A stretch of 64,000 nucleotides of DNA from Citrus sinensis (taxonomy: Eukaryota > Streptophyta > Magnoliopsida > Sapindales > Rutaceae), in contig NC_068563.1 of NCBI RefSeq assembly GCF_022201045.2, positions 1,302,001-1,366,000 of the forward strand. The letters are read 5' to 3'. The notes under the pieces were generated by a model, which was not told where the DNA came from, did not search any database, and saw only the letters and a program-made list of their open reading frames with translations. Of this stretch, positions 53,599-60,865 are shown piece after piece. The translations under genes were made by a program, and so were the position numbers. The stretch's first letter is position 1; every line of letters starts with the position of its first letter.

Positions 53599-53607
53599 TG
53601 ATTGTTT

Positions 53608-53737
53608 GGGAAATTTACAAAAATAATCATAAAAGTTTTGTTATTTTCACAATTAACCCTCTCAATTTTTTTCTATCAACATTAACCACACACATGCTTT
53701 TCTCCCCAAATTACCCTTCTTTACAAACCAAAAGCAA
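53608..53737. repeat. Left terminal inverted repeat of the MULE
   Basis: Matches the reverse complement of 60618-60747, strongest over the first 83 bp: GGGAAATTTACA, then attttgnt and ctatcaacatta blocks. Moderate divergence between the arms. Confidence 0.85.
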
Positions 53738-53953
53738 CATTCTTTCTCCCCTTTCGTCAAACAAAGGCAGTTTCCACTCTTGAATCATCAACCAACGGCA
53801 ACGGCAAAAGGCAACGATAAAAAATGAAATCCGATCATAATTTATTCGGATCCAACACTAATCGACATCACATAGTGGTATGAGTTATTTTCTTGCTCGT
53901 GAGTTTGACTGAACTGCGGATGATTTCATGGGTGAATCTGGAGACAGGTTGAC

Positions 53954-54072
53954 TGTCGCACCAAGCCCTGTCGCACCAAACCTTGGAGCGACAGGCTGCC
54001 TGTCGCACCAAAACTTGGAGCGACATGCAACCTTTCACTCCAAGTTTCGTGCGACAGTCAACCTGTCGCACC
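53954..54072. promoter_or_regulatory. Left subterminal repeat cluster of the MULE
   Basis: TGTCGCACC occurs at 53954-53962, 53969-53977, 54001-54009 and 54064-54072. One inverted GTGCGACA lies at 54049-54056. Related ttggagcgaca variants lie between. The cluster sits about 350-465 bp inside the left end. The same word lies in the opposite orientation near the right end. The position suggests transposase-binding or promoter repeats. Confidence 0.6.
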
Positions 54073-54148
54073 AAAAGCCATATTCATTATAATTAACTAT
54101 TAATTTGATAGGGCTGAAATAATTTATTTTTTTATAATTTCAGGCTTA

Positions 54149-56782
54149 ATGGATTCAGTTGTACTTGAATTGTATTACGATGGTTGCTGGGAGACATTAG
54201 AGGATGGGCGTATGGAGTATGTCAATGGTAAAAATAGAGCTTTTTTGGTTGGAAAAAATTATCTTTTTGATCAGTTATTGGCAAGAGTATACGATGTGTT
54301 ATAAATTAATCCTAATGAATATAGTATCATAATGAAGATAACTTTGAGGTCTAGTAACACATTATATCGTGTATGTGCACTGCCCATGGATATATTTGAT
54401 GATGAAATGGTGAGGGTTGTGTTACATATGGCATCCGACGTAGTTAATTTTGGATGCATTCATATATTTGTTACCACATCACCTCGAGTTCCGAGTGGAG
54501 GTATTGAGCCACATGTCGATACAGAAACTTCGTTTAGAGCAAATATGTCTGGCCCCGATAATGAAGAAGAGGTATTGCCAAGGACAATATCACTGCAGCA
54601 ATATTACTTTCCAATCCACGACAATTATGACAACATTGATGATGACGGCGTTACGTTACAGGATGTTGGAGCAACGATATTTTCAATAACGATGTCGTTG
54701 GAGCAACGGTATTCTCCGTATCACAATAATAATTTTCGGGACAATGATGATTTTCATGATGAGACAGAGGGGGATAATGTTTGTGCAGAACCTTATAATA
54801 ATATGAGGGGCACTCATTTCAATAATGATAGTGATGATGGAGGAGCCAGTCCTTCGAATGTTCCGTCGTTTCAGCATGAGGATGAATGTGAAGACAATAC
54901 TCCTGTGAATAACAGAGGCAATAGACCTATTCCAACAATGGTTTGATTGAGAAGGAGAATTGACCCTCTCACAAGTCTTGCTCCAACTTTTCCTTCGAAC
55001 ATGGTTGCTCCAAGCTTTGTTAGCAGTTGTGACTCAGATGATATCAGTGTGGGTAAGCTATTTGCTGAGAAGAATGAGTTTATATTACAACTACGCAAGG
55101 TTGCCTTTCGGGATAAGTTTGATTTCAAGATTGCACGGTCTACTACGACACGTTTCGAGGCTCACTGTAGTTCAGAATCATGTAAATGGCGTATTCGAGC
55201 AACTAGATGTTCGAACGAGAAAAATGTTCCTTGGGTGGTGCGGAGAATTGATAATGTACACACTTGTCATAATGAGATATTGGTTGCTGGACGTCATCAA
55301 GTCAGGAGCCGGGTTGTCGGTCATATTATCGCAGATAAATATATTCAAGACAAGAGAATTTATACTCCGAATGACATAAGAGCAGATATGCAACAAGAAT
55401 ACGGTGTTCAGTTAACATACCAGCAGGCATATCGGGCGAGAGAAGTTGGTCTTGAAATAGTTCGAGGCAACCCTGCAGAGTCATACAACTTGCTCCCTAA
55501 ATACTCTCACGTACTAACTGCAGCGAATGAGGGTACAGTCACTCACATCGAGCAGGATGGAGATGGTAATTTTTTGTACTATTTTGTAGCACTCGGATCT
55601 TCCATCAAGGGTTTCATGCAGTACATTCAGCCTGTCATTGCTGTAGATGGTACTCATCTCAAGGGGCTATATCGTGGAAGCATGTTCGTGGCAACATGTC
55701 TTGATGGTAACAATCAATTGTATCTGTTAGCCATTGGGATCATGGATTCAGAAAACAATGATGCTTGGGAATGGTTTATGATGAAGTTACATGGAGTGAT
55801 TGGCGATAGATCTGAGTTGGTTATTATATCTGATCGATGCACTGTCATAAAGAGAGCCGTTCTTAAAGTATTTCAGAATGCAACTCATGGAGTTTATTTT
55901 TACCATGTGAAAGGTAACATTAAGTCACAATTTAGAATGTCAAAAGCTCTTTGGGATCAATTTGAGCCTGCCTTTATTAATGCAGCAAAAGCATATGGCC
56001 ACGAGGAATTTAAGAGACAACTTGAAGGGTTGTGGATGATCCACTCAGATGCGGCTGACTACCTAGAAAATAATGTCGGTACGTGTAATTGGGCAAGGTC
56101 TCAGTTTGAAGGTAGGAGGTACAGCATACTTACCACCAACATCGCGGAGAGTGTTAATTCTTTCATGAGGGAACCCCGAAAATTTCCTGTTACTCATCTT
56201 GTTGATCACTTTAGGAAAACGCTGCAACAATGGTTTTATGATAGAAAAATTATAGCTGAATCAATGAGTACTCGGCTAATAACATGGGCAGATGAAATAG
56301 TCACTGAGCGAAGAACTATAGCTAAAAGAATGATAGTTCGGTCGGTGTCTCCGCATCGATTTCAAGTTATAGGTGGTGGGCTTAAGGAAGGTTTGGTTGA
56401 CTTGCAAAAGAAAACTTGCTCCTGCAGAGTTTTTCAGCTTGATCAGCTTGTATGTTCTCATGCAATTGCGGCGTGTCTAGCAGACCGGGTGGATTATATT
56501 AATCTTTGCTCGGACTTTTACACTACAGAATGGTTGGCGATGGCTTATGCACAACCAGTGGAGTCAGTTGGCGATGTGGCTGATTGGGAAGTTCCAGATG
56601 AAATTCAGGAGATGGAAGTATACCCTCCAGTTGAGGCACCACCAGCTGGCCGTCGTAAAGAGCACAAAATACCCTCAGCTGGCGAGGACGTTAACCGGCG
56701 GACTGTAAGATGCGGGCGGTGTCATGAACTGGGCCATAATCGCAAGCGGTGTAAGAATCCCATTGCGTCGAATCGAAGTTAG
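54149..56782 (+). pseudogene. MULE transposase (mudrA type), two in-frame stops
   Basis: One frame of 878 codons from ATG 54149 to the stop ending at 56782, broken only by TAA at 54302-54304 and TGA at 54944-54946. The longest uninterrupted part is 54947-56782 (611 residues). Order of parts: an acidic, Asn/Asp-rich N-terminal third, the MuDR N-terminal domain (from about 55040), and the DDE transposase core. In the core the first Asp is in VIAVDGTHLKG (codon 55646) and the second in VIISDRC. A SWIM zinc finger of the C-x-C...C-x-H type follows (CSC...VCSH, about 56415-56463), then a CCHC knuckle CGRCHELGHNRKRC (about 56712-56753). An acceptor-like cag just before the ATG suggests a leader intron. 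Both stops could come from single C-to-T changes (CAA or CGA codons). Confidence 0.88.
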
Positions 56783-57034
56783 TTGTATTGTTTCAATAAT
56801 TCGTTGATTATAACTGTTATATTTTTTTAGTGTATTGTACACTTATATGTGAGTGTGATTTTTTTTTAATATTAAAATGTGAGCATTCAATTTATATAAA
56901 CTTAAGTGCGCAAATTAGAATAAAAATTTAAATTTCAACATTAAAATTACTACAACGGTTTACAATACAATATCGTCATTAAATATGTCAACCGCAATTT
57001 TCTTTCTAAAGTACTCGACATGACTAGCGGTAAA

Positions 57035-60000
57035 CTATAATGTAAGCCCGAACATTAAATACATCGTAACCATCAATACAAAAACACCGCAGTCGCCAGT
57101 TCCGCGCTCTTGTTGTGGCGCACTCTTAACAACGAGAACTTTCCAGGGGTCGGCACTCCGCAACTCAGGTCGGATGTTGTAGAACCCAACATATTCCAAC
57201 CATCGAGGGAAGATAACTTCAAGTGGCTTGAATTTCAACCTGTATGTTTTGTCGTCGCGGCATGTGAGTAATGAGTCATAAATCCAGACTTTGTTTTTCC
57301 GAAAGTCTACTCGTGCCAGTACCCAATGCTCGCCGTCCAAGTTAACAGGGATGAGTAACTGTATATAACAATTCAAAAACATCTTCGTTATATATGAAAT
57401 TGAAAAACAACTAAGAAAATACTCGTGAACTTGTATATGAAATGCAATAAACTACATACCATATCGACATCCGTCATCGATTTGGACATTGTGTGCTATC
57501 GCCCACAGAGATAGCTATTCAAGCGGTCGTTGAATTCTAATGAATCGACCGCACAATGCCCATTGTTCCATAACTGAGTCAAGAATACATAATACATAGA
57601 TAACAAAAAAAATGCATTAATTAACAAAACTTAAAGGCGATAATTAAAAAAAACATAAATAGTATTTATGTTCGTTATGTTGGCACGTTACCCAAAAAAA
57701 TGTGTCGGTATGTGTGACACGTTGAAGTAAGACATTCGGATACTGCCGTTGTTTCTCGCTAATCAAGCGAAAATACTCGTGAATATGCTGTAGAAAAACA
57801 TAAACATTACAATTTAAAAGAAAATATTTATATACAAATCCACATTACTCAAAGCACTTCGAAACTATAATTACCTCATCGCCTAGCCATCTCATCGAAG
57901 TTAAACCCAAAAGTATTTCAAAGAATGACCGCGAGTGCCGGACTCTCCGAACCACTGTCATATCACCAGTGAACCATCGATCAAACTCAGAAAACATACT
58001 AGAGTCCTTCAATCCTCTCAGTGGATTTATATCCACAGTCGTACTCATGTCAATCGCATGCTCCAAGATTTAGGGTCGAGGCAAAGGCCGGACGTTCTGT
58101 CTTCGCCTGACTGGAGGAATCATGTAAGGACTGTTATAAACATACGACGGTATGTACGCACGGCCGAACTTACTAACGCCGGGAGGCACCTCAGAGAACA
58201 CCTACACGCTCTCCCCACTAACATCCCCGTAGAAACTATACAATGACGTGGGCGTAGACAAATTTTCATTGCCCATGTTAGTATACACTCCATAGTCATC
58301 CGGGGCCTGTCCATTCGCCAAGAAGAACATATTAAACAACTATCAAATTAAAAGTTAAACGAACATAATTATTAAATAAAAATTTGCTCACCGCATATGA
58401 GCGTGCAGTGGGAGAATCCTTATTTGGACGTTTAGAAAATGTGTCGATGAAGCCAACAACAGTTTCTTTAAAATCTTTTAATTCTGACTTTATTTCGTAC
58501 ACGTTACGATCAATCTTATCCAGCCGTCGTCGTATGTAATCATTAAACTGCTTTGTCCTCAACTATTACAAAAGAATAAACAGAAAACTTTAGAATAACA
58601 ATAAAAAATTAATAATTTATAAAGGAAAAATATCGTATATTATTTATAACCTCAGAATCCCGTGCGTCATCAGAGTTGTCTGTTTGCTGCTGGTGGTCAT
58701 CAACAGGCACCTCATCCTCATAAGTGTCATGACGCTGCTCTGGTATTGGGTTTGGCAACATGTCTTGATCGTCATGCTCGTCTGATTGCCTTGTAACCGA
58801 CGTCATCGCATTGATTAAGGGTTGGTGCTGTATAAAGTATCATTTAAAATTAGTAAATGAAAAGTCATTAATTTCGATTAAAAAATTTTTAGTACTTAAA
58901 GTATACCAACCTTAAGAACCTAGCCTGGAATGCTTGGCAAGTAATCCTTCACAGAGAGCCAATATTTTCTGCTACTCTCCTTTGAATTTGGCTTAAGAGT
59001 TTGTAAAACGTCCCCCTGCCATAAATAAAATTGAAAATTTTAAGTAAGTATACATAACTTAAATTTAGTAAAATTAAAAAAATAAGTAATACATATTACT
59101 TACAAGACGAGATTCGTCGTTGAAGAACGAATAAACCTCTGCAAAATTGATTCTCGAAGACGCCATGGGCTTCAATTGCAAAATGCGGGGAATCTTATTC
59201 TTCGTTTTGACGACCCATATTGATGGCAACCCTCCGATTGCTTCGTAAATCCAAGCCTACAACAACCAAATTAAAAAATATATAAAACAACATATCAAAT
59301 ATTTAATACTATAAAACTTATTAATAAACATAAACAAAAACGCACCTGAACCCCAGAAGTAAAACCGTAAAGATTGTATTTTTCAATGTTATGATCTGGA
59401 TTTTTCAACCGAGTCTTCTTAAATTTCTCGTCTTTCTCGAACAGTGCATTGTCAAAACTCTCGTAAATCATTTCCCACGACAACAGATCCCATGAACGCT
59501 TTCGGAAGTACTGTATATCATCAACTTGGTCAAGCCAATCGAAATTGATTTGACAGTGATTTTTTCTTGCATTTAGTACTCGGTCCGCAAAATAAAACAG
59601 CGCAATCTTTAATGCGTCCATATCGTCCATATCGTCCATTTCCTCGAATTTCAACTCCTTAAATATTGCATCGAATTCCTTCACATTAATCTTACGATGC
59701 ACACCACCAAAATACGTATTCCGTAGCCTCTGCTCCATTTCATCATTTTTTTGATTGGTATCAACACCAAATGAAAGTCCAGTAACCAAGCACCATTCGA
59801 CAATTGACAAGCGAATCAAATGCTCACCAATTTGAAACCATAACTGATCCTCACGGCTATCTTCTTCATGGGCCACTTGCCTCAGTAAAAGATTGTGCAA
59901 AATTACCCCACTAAATGGAAAACTTCGACACTCCAAGAAATGCCCAAATATATCATTTTTGAACATAGTCAACTGCCGCTTTGTTAATTTTTCCTCGATG

Positions 60001-60113
60001 GCTTTTATGACCGAAGATAACTTACACATGCTCGAAATTCGACCAGGAAAGTGATCGGCATAACTAAAATACATTTTGCCTACTTCAATATCCGGTGATT
60101 CTGATTTCGCCAT
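57035..60113 (-). pseudogene. MULE-carried DUF1985/Ulp1-like protease gene, four in-frame stops
   Basis: Nine exons on the minus strand keep one frame of 780 codons: 60113-59346, 59256-59104, 59015-58911, 58827-58651, 58562-58392, 58306-57875, 57787-57692, 57573-57460 and 57358-57035. Exon 1 holds a DUF1985-like domain (FPFSGVILHNLLLRQ, WCLVTGLSFG) and exon 2 its end (AWIYEAIGGLPSIW). Exons 3-6 are low-complexity and coiled-coil-like. The last exon is a C48 protease core with His in GEHWVLARVD, Asp in VWIYDS and Cys in GTGDCGVFVL, so the catalytic triad is intact. Four codons are stops (TAG in exon 3, TAG and TAA in exon 6, TAG in exon 8). Ulp1 proteases process SUMO. Whether the MULE versions do, or serve transposition, is unknown. 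Confidence 0.82.
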
Positions 60114-60197
60114 GTATCTGTAATATTTATAAAATTATTACATTACGTTTATAGAAAAAAAAATGACTCGTTAAAAAAAAAAGACACTATAATTTTT

Positions 60198-60271
60198 GGT
60201 GCGACAGCGCGCGTTCTTGCACCAAAAAATTGGTGCGACAGCAAGCCTATCGCATCAGATTTGGTGCGACA
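60198..60271. promoter_or_regulatory. Right subterminal repeat cluster of the MULE
   Basis: GGTGCGACA occurs at 60198-60206, 60232-60240 and 60263-60271, the reverse complement of the word at the left end, so both clusters face the same way relative to their nearest terminus. Weaker variants (cttgcacc, atcgcatc) lie between. The cluster is about 475-550 bp from the right end and just upstream of the protease-like gene start (60113). Confidence 0.6.
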
Positions 60272-60617
60272 GTGGGGCACGCATGGGCGCGCGCTGCTGC
60301 CCAACGATGGGTGCGCGCGCGCGCCCTGCCCCCCTCCCTCTCCACCCCCAAAATTAAGCCACAACAAAATCGAAAAACAATACTCCTAAACACCACCAAC
60401 CACCAGAAACACCACCACCATTATTCTCAAACTATAACTATTATTATTCTAAAATCTCATTTTAAATTAATGAAAATAAGAAAAATGACTAACCTAGGTT
60501 TTGTTGAAGGTTGTAGATCGGATGCCGGTGAGAGATGGAGCCGCCGCCGACGAGGGTTGATGTCGCCGCCGATGATGGGAGTTGGATCGGTTTGTGAGAG
60601 ATGAGTGAAAGGGAGTG

Positions 60618-60747
60618 TTGGGGGAGAGATGAGGGAGGGGTGTTTTGGTCTCAAAAGTTGTTTAATGGCTAATGTTGATAGAAATATTTTTGGGGGGGTT
60701 AAGATGAAAAAAATCAAAATTTTTATAGGTATTATTGTAAATTTCCC
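60618..60747. repeat. Right terminal inverted repeat of the MULE
   Basis: Counterpart of 53608-53737. Ends in TGTAAATTTCCC immediately before the second copy of tgattgttt. Confidence 0.85.
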
Positions 60748-60865
60748 TGATTGTTTTGAGCGGTATTCCCCCTTTAACCCTAACAGGAAAGACTTATGAA
60801 TTGCTTTGCTTCGCATATAGATTCATTCCTCAATCTTAACAATCCCAGCTCTCGAAAACCTGAAA

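Follow-up and report, generated by a model that had tools for sequence, protein, structure and literature searches.

A Mutator-like element family of sweet orange with a probable VANC/KIU-type gene and motif arrays of its own

Why Mutator-like elements (MULEs) so frequently carry genes for Ulp1-type proteases is an unsettled question; such genes are treated as the outcome of repeated capture, or the function of their Ulp1 domain is called unknown (PMC2528002, PMC13317346; statements on cited papers refer throughout to the parts of those papers that were available). An element that bears on this question lies within a 64,000-nucleotide stretch of the Citrus sinensis genome (contig NC_068563.1, positions 1,302,001 to 1,366,000; hereafter the window), where a mudrA-type transposase gene faces a nine-exon gene with DUF1985 and Ulp1 domains. 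We call the family of this element W, a label that also denotes its DUF1985 clade. Our reading, to which we assign a probability of roughly 0.7, is that the second gene encodes a sequence-specific anti-silencing factor of the VANC/KIU type and is not an analogue of mudrB. Anti-silencing MULEs are a kind already known, and family W is a further member.

In Arabidopsis, VANC21 and VANC6 have as their targets short motifs, arrayed in tandem in noncoding DNA and changing fast from copy to copy; VANC proteins combine a DUF1985 domain with variable regions holding tandem peptide repeats, and their targets evolve through gain and loss of tandem repeats (PMC5735166). VANC genes that carry Ulp1 (KIU) are said to hypomethylate KIU elements via motifs (PMC13317346).

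The second gene and the motif arrays

The features of the window on which this reading draws are as follows (motifs counted at up to one mismatch unless stated otherwise).

56960..60113, minus strand: DUF1985/Ulp1 (VANC/KIU-like) gene, nine exons projected from copy L035; five in-frame stops, intron 7 acceptor lost; intact in L034, L035 and L037 (3 of 7)
60113-59346, 59256-59104, 59015-58911, 58827-58651, 58562-58392, minus strand: exons 1-5 of this gene, projected from L035
58306-57875, 57787-57692, 57588-57460, 57358-56960, minus strand: exons 6-9 of this gene, projected from L035
59460..59888, minus strand: DUF1985 domain, in exon 1 (Pfam PF09331, E 1.2e-16)
58651..58827, minus strand: exon 4, a variable, acidic region; L035 and L037 have tandem peptide repeats here, unexpanded in the window copy
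57047..57358, minus strand: Ulp1 (Peptidase_C48) catalytic part (Pfam; open copy L035 aligned to SENP1)
53943..54075, no strand: left motif array, preceding the transposase ATG on its 5' side, with CTGTCGCACCAA / TTGGTGCGACAG in both orientations; six motifs; proposed target of the DUF1985 protein
60193..60272, no strand: right motif array, preceding the DUF1985/Ulp1 gene on its 5' side; three motifs in the window, 28 in L035

The Pfam matches above cut-off in the product of the second gene were DUF1985 and Peptidase_C48, the latter with E 2.8e-17 in the window and E 9e-30 in the 832-residue protein of L035. The nine-exon structure first proposed from the window was borne out on the open copies L034, L035 and L037, where all exons are in phase 0, all introns run from GT to AG and the frame is open throughout. 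In the window copy exon 6 holds two of the stops and exons 3, 8 and 9 hold one each, and intron 7 ends without an AG acceptor. The His, Asp, Gln and Cys of the L035 Ulp1 domain, which we take to be the catalytic residues, align with those of SENP1, and the tandem peptide repeats of exon 4 differ between L035 and L037. A sequence search of the PDB with E up to 1 returned no relative of the DUF1985 exon, nor of the transposase.

In the comparison of L035 with L037, the DUF1985/Ulp1 gene as a whole had a ratio of nonsynonymous to synonymous substitution rates (dN/dS) of 0.30 and its catalytic exon one of 0.13, and the transposase stood at 0.16. When five copies were compared in all ten pairings, values ran from 0.30 to 0.56 for the DUF1985/Ulp1 gene and from 0.16 to 0.81 for the transposase, the top transposase value being that between two broken copies. 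Judged by these ratios, the DUF1985/Ulp1 gene is under purifying selection.

The motif arrays were overlooked in the preliminary description of the locus and are its most informative part. Repeats of CTGTCGCACCAA stand in both orientations in noncoding DNA 5' of both window genes, and the 300-Mb genome contains 1142 exact instances of the 12-mer as against 3 of its reversed control, on which count we dismissed a reading as chance repeats. The motif was never found between the two start codons in any of the seven full-length copies. Its totals in the flanking segments were 34 in L035, 20 in L034, 10 in L037, 9 in the window copy, 4 in L039, 2 in L036 and 1 in L038; those for L034 and L035 are lower bounds, the leftmost parts of these copies having been fetched separately and left out of the count. 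The right-hand array has 14 motifs in L034 and 28 in L035, despite a core identity of 99.97%. A CpG forms the centre of the motif, which is often arranged as inverted pairs. At up to two mismatches over nine loci, the C of this CpG was kept in 124 of 126 instances and its G in 125 of 126, with about 2 chance matches among them; many of the instances come from L034, L035 and L040, and since L034 and L035 are twin copies they are not independent. Same-strand spacings of the W motif cluster at 30-35, and those of the motifs of two further DUF1985 clades described below at 22-24 and multiples (clade B) and at 30, 64 and 86 (clade A); because motif spacing mirrors the repeat units, we claim no 10.5-bp rule.

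Association of motif and family was followed on one contig, C1. Among the matches listed there, all 16 family features (3 left ends, 4 right ends and 9 DUF1985 hits, excluding a left-end row at 76%) lay 231-1239 bp from an exact W motif, and the sole listed clade-B DUF1985 hit lay 157 kb from one. Of the 26 motif clusters on this contig, 13 were near a family feature among the matches listed. Two dense isolated arrays of 11 and 13 exact motifs (G000:C1:5201815-5202067 and C1:21511786-21512116) have no listed feature within 8 kb, and are either stand-alone arrays or short non-autonomous copies.

Boundaries, copies and decay of the element

53599..53607, no strand: left target site duplication TGATTGTTT (sequence)
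53608..53688, plus strand: left inverted terminus, 79.5% over 83 columns against the right terminus; among the places scored, 39 others match the 133-base end at 92-97%
54149..56782, plus strand: mudrA-type transposase gene, a single frame of 877 codons with two in-frame stops (Pfam MULE, DBD_Tnp_Mut, SWIM); intact in L034, L035 and L037 (3 of 7)
60666..60747, minus strand: right inverted terminus (alignment with the left terminus; recurrence in the genome)
60748..60756, no strand: right target site duplication TGATTGTTT (sequence)

The window element occupies 53608-60747, between identical 9-bp duplications, TGATTGTTT, at 53599-53607 and 60748-60756 (9 of 9 bases), and its outermost sequences, GGGAAATTTAC...GTAAATTTCCC, lie immediately inside them. 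The 9-bp target site duplication and the transposase domains (PF10551, E 3.9e-17; PF03108, E 5.2e-10; SWIM, E 7.4e-8) mark it as a MULE. The transposase reading frame is interrupted at codons 52 and 266. Pfam domains and the exon structure of the open copies agree in supporting the arrangement proposed beforehand, a mudrA-type transposase gene converging on a nine-exon DUF1985/Ulp1 gene.

The inverted ends of the window copy are 76% identical over 58 nt without gaps, and 79.5% over 83 columns with gaps (53608-53688 against 60666-60747). Likeness between the ends was 72-80% over 81-115 columns in all nine copies of family W that we read, two young ones included, and in none of the nine did it reach the 100-200 bp of terminal inverted repeat, about 95% alike, by which the available text of PMC4334395 words the criterion for a TIR-MULE. 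The ends are therefore degenerate even in young copies, and the "recognisable long TIRs" of the preliminary description did not hold up. Genome searches placed the best 40 of 657 left-end candidates at 92-100%, with the window among them, and the best 40 of 548 right-end candidates likewise at 92-100%; one extra row at 76% in each set lies on the opposite strand and adjoins a full match. Since the best-scored matches are this close, the ends are no chance likeness.

The eight further copies were chosen by the right end (L034, L035, L037, L038 and L039), the left end (L036 and L040) or both (L041), and copies picked by one end also carried the other, so that left and right ends occur together in nine of nine; the failure of the ends to co-occur, which would have refuted the preliminary description, did not arise. 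Exact duplications flank six of the nine, namely the window copy, L034 (AAACTGTTT), L035 (AAAAAAAAT), L037 (AAATTAAAA), L038 (AAACCCTTG) and L041 (CCTTTTTTT); those of L036 and L039 match at 8 of 9 bases and that of L040 at all 7 readable bases. Related copies thus stand between different 9-bp duplications, as had been anticipated for a genome search with the ends, and together with the perfect duplication and inverted termini of the window copy this upholds the view that a complete MULE had been correctly delimited. L040 is a 2277-bp non-autonomous relative with 17 motifs, and L041 a 1928-bp internal-deletion derivative with two. At the latter locus (G000:C4:26528200-26530500) a second family W left end starts right after the CCTTTTTTT duplication, reflecting either a double insertion at the site or two copies in tandem.

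Both genes are intact in three of the seven full-length copies (L034, L035 and L037) and both are broken in the other four (window, L036, L038 and L039). L034 and L035 lie on different contigs within separate perfect duplications, and over 5998 aligned core bases they differ by two bases and one gap. The window copy, with both genes broken by in-frame stops, is dead, and for that reason it is unsuited to serve as a reference for the family; with degenerate ends in nine of nine copies as well, we rejected its earlier presentation as a long-TIR reference copy.

The broken copies bear a mutational footprint of the methylation type. In the window copy, lineage-specific C>T/G>A changes were seen at 6.3% of CG, 4.1% of CHG and 3.4% of CHH sites; the corresponding figures were 5.2, 3.4 and 2.4% for L038, as against 1.1, 0.4 and 0.7% for L035 and 2.9, 0.9 and 1.4% for L037. 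Scaled by the changes at A/T sites, C>T changes taken together stood at 0.40 in L035, 0.99 in L037, 1.65 in the window copy, 1.62 in L036, 3.55 in L038 and 3.21 in L039, where one set of three copies served to polarise both the window copy and L036. The excess is absent from the open, motif-rich L035 and present in all four broken copies, in the order CG > CHG > CHH. Motif number fell with decay over the six copies (Spearman rho -0.71, p 0.11 for CG; -0.83, p 0.04 for all C>T), a trend that is only suggestive.

Other DUF1985 clades and their motifs

The W motif was absent from 19 of 20 further DUF1985 loci (L014-L033) and occurred once in the remaining one, L028. Other clades have words of their own. 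In clade A (10 loci) the motif is AGTCG[T/A/G]GTA; clade B mostly has AAGTCGAGTA, with some AGTCGGGTA, which is common to clade A; and L033 (clade D) has GGTCGTGTA-like words four times. Per 10 kb, TGTCGCACCA occurs at a density of 14.3 in W, 0.1 in A and 0 in B; AGTCGTGTA at 8.5 in A and 0 in both W and B; AGTCGAGTA at 14.9 in B, 4.1 in A and 0 in W; and AGTCGGGTA at 4.2 in B, 3.8 in A and 0 in W. In a tree of 26 DUF1985 rows (L039, which has no such row, was excluded), B and W are well-supported single groups and A forms one group with weak support (66/43). The transposases of the clades are about 38-39% identical in full-length matches.

As in W, the clade A and B motifs avoid coding DNA: only 5 of 163 in clade A and 0 of 150 in clade B fell inside tblastn-aligned coding DNA, which makes up about 20% of the length (the clade B count covers seven of eight loci, omitting L024, a DUF1985 tandem array). 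They sit 5' of the genes, in the space between the gene 3' ends, and in the stretch that separates the Ulp1 from the DUF1985 match; clade A has 56 of its 163 motifs in the second of these positions and 10 in the third, and clade B has 28 of its 150 between the genes. At the C of the motif CpG, a T is read in 54 of 326 clade A instances and in 40 of 306 clade B instances, counts that include about 23 and 28 chance matches, respectively.

We had predicted beforehand that clade E, whose DUF1985 exon is 57% identical to that of the window over 257 residues and whose terminus is W-like, would have an array of its own 5' of DUF1985. This held in the single copy fetched, L044, where a dense GC-rich array 5' of DUF1985 contains CTGTCGCAC four times, along with one exact W motif and one with a mismatch. 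Being a near relative of W, clade E is not an independent family. The L044 element (G000:C9:1147300-1154900) is apparently split by a long terminal repeat (LTR) retrotransposon, seen as a long minus-strand gag-like frame, and no left end was seen in the segment fetched.

Two further observations concern clade B and the Ulp1 matches. At L024 (G000:C4:19389372-19399272) seven DUF1985 hits with identical scores recur at an exact spacing of 1607 bp across C4:19391872-19401900; this is a satellite-like tandem array derived from a piece of a clade-B element. Among the 150 Ulp1 matches listed, some 18 that are 59-62% identical have exactly one internal TAG and one TAA (for example C5:21166015, C3:30287518 and C6:21780584), and in the same group an open frame of 269 residues is present in many of the DUF1985 hits. 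This is a recently amplified group in which DUF1985 may have been kept and the protease lost; alternatively, the stops could lie in a read-through intron.

Reading of the second gene

The sequence hallmarks of VANC and VANDAL elements that we tested are present in family W: a DUF1985 protein encoded by a MULE, a family-specific short motif in noncoding tandem arrays, and a motif that changes together with the DUF1985 clade (W, A and B, with L022, L024 and L030 as exceptions). It is because of the DUF1985 domain and these arrays that we favour the VANC/KIU reading, to which L035 adds the hallmark of KIU, a Ulp1/C48 domain with putative catalytic residues in the same protein. Under this reading the transposase would bind the element ends and move the element, as in standard MULE biology, and the convergent gene would supply the VANC/KIU-type anti-silencing factor. 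Its DUF1985-containing part would recognise CTGTCGCACCAA, repeated in both orientations 5' of both genes, and binding to the arrays would counter host DNA methylation so that both promoters are active, both in cis and on those non-autonomous relatives that carry the motif. The Ulp1 domain, a catalytically plausible cysteine protease of the deSUMOylase type retained by selection, may strip SUMO from silencing factors at the bound array, the most speculative step. We put forward only tentatively, and with well below even odds, a fuller version in which the protein is a motif-guided SUMO protease: DUF1985 would read the CpG-centred inverted-pair motif, possibly only when unmethylated, and bring Ulp1 to desumoylate host silencing factors; motif number, able to double between near-identical copies, would set the time of escape; and several DUF1985-motif pairs (W, A, B and the W-like E) would share one genome.

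Several observations weigh against the VANC/KIU reading. Pfam gave no DUF287 match in the DUF1985/Ulp1 protein, and dN/dS rises in pairs with broken copies, to 0.56 for the gene and 0.81 for the transposase. The relation of motif number to decay comes from n=6 and is confounded by age, shared ancestry and non-random choice of copies; the window copy itself decayed despite its 9 motifs. No motif array was found at L022 (clade C) or at the clade-B loci L024 and L030, and clades A and B have part of their motifs in common. Genome-wide, neither the clade A nor the clade B 10-mer clearly outnumbers its reversed control (1036 versus 977; 610 versus 795), so that these motifs rest on local density, and the elements of both clades are known from coding matches and motifs. 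Finally, as the transposase and DUF1985 genes are linked, co-variation of motif and clade cannot single out which protein reads the motif.

That same linkage of transposase and motif would suit arrays that are subterminal repeats bound by the transposase, as the TNPA sites of En/Spm are, with the DUF1985/Ulp1 gene serving another role or aiding transposition. The family W arrays indeed stand near both ends and in both orientations. However, the motifs of clades A and B also occur mid-element, in the proportions given above, for which reason we rejected this as the principal explanation; a transposase is moreover expected to bind the inverted ends, and L038 and L041 have exact duplications with only one or two motifs in all (later loss of motifs is possible). 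We regard transposase binding as unlikely. Less probable still is that the arrays are functionless GC-rich slippage repeats and the gene a captured host-type protease carried as a passenger. The arrays are repeats with strong changes in copy number, and gene capture by MULEs is common (PMC2528002), but clade-specific motif arrays in noncoding DNA recur across several clades, the CpG of the W motif is kept (in instances that are not independent), and a gene under purifying selection is common to clades with highly diverged transposases. The preliminary description had given the second gene the place that mudrB has in maize MuDR. As to convergent position this stands, and it would favour a mudrB-like insertion or transposition helper; the likeness is one of position. 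DUF1985 and the motif arrays point to VANC and not to mudrB, and we rejected the analogy as the principal reading. The Pfam domains of the gene, DUF1985 and Peptidase_C48, are those that mark the Arabidopsis VANC/KIU genes, and MURB is not known to have either. We consider a mudrB-like role highly improbable.

Retaining the VANC/KIU reading, we compared family W with described systems. It resembles VANC/VANDAL in being a MULE with a DUF1985 protein, family-specific noncoding motif arrays, gain and loss of units, and variable peptide repeats (PMC5735166, PMC10398659), and differs in the motif, which is YAGTATTAY and AGTTGTCC/AGTTGTAC there and CTGTCGCACCAA here. The W motif is CpG-centred and often in inverted pairs, and the W protein has a Ulp1 domain and no DUF287 match. 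With Kaonashi (KI)/KIU it shares a Ulp1 gene inside a MULE in opposite orientation to mudrA (PMC2528002), KIU having been described as Ulp1-carrying VANC genes (PMC13317346; the name KIU is in PMC6117577); these belong to another plant, Arabidopsis, and the likeness is one of description. MULEs of melon, rice and grapevine (Mutavine) likewise carry Ulp1 sequence beyond the transposase, on the same or the opposite strand, but are discussed as gene capture (PMC2528002). Precedents for a Ulp1-bearing MULE are genuine in Arabidopsis (Kaonashi), melon and rice (PMC2528002, PMC13317346), the name CUMULE coming only from the preliminary description. In the open-licence literature searched, which excludes most subscription journals, and in the parts of it available, we found no description of family W, its motif, the CpG centre, the inverted-pair layout or coexisting motif clades.

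What family W brings to the question of Ulp1 carriage is a protease gene with apparent landing sites of its own, purifying selection, and differently-motifed counterparts in the same genome. This pairing of the gene with putative landing sites and counterparts opens the question to a test for which one protein, one 12-bp probe and one methylome would suffice.

Within Citrus, the CitMule elements are also MULEs of about 7 kb with 9-bp duplications and degenerate ends, and those of CitMule_1 (65 bp at 78%, classed as a non-TIR MULE) resemble the ends of family W; they differ in having a single FAR1/SWIM/MULE transposase gene of five exons, and Ulp1 occurs 0 times in the available text (PMC4334395). 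In a study of sweet orange, 31 of 40 spontaneous structural variants came from three MULEs (PMC9832951).

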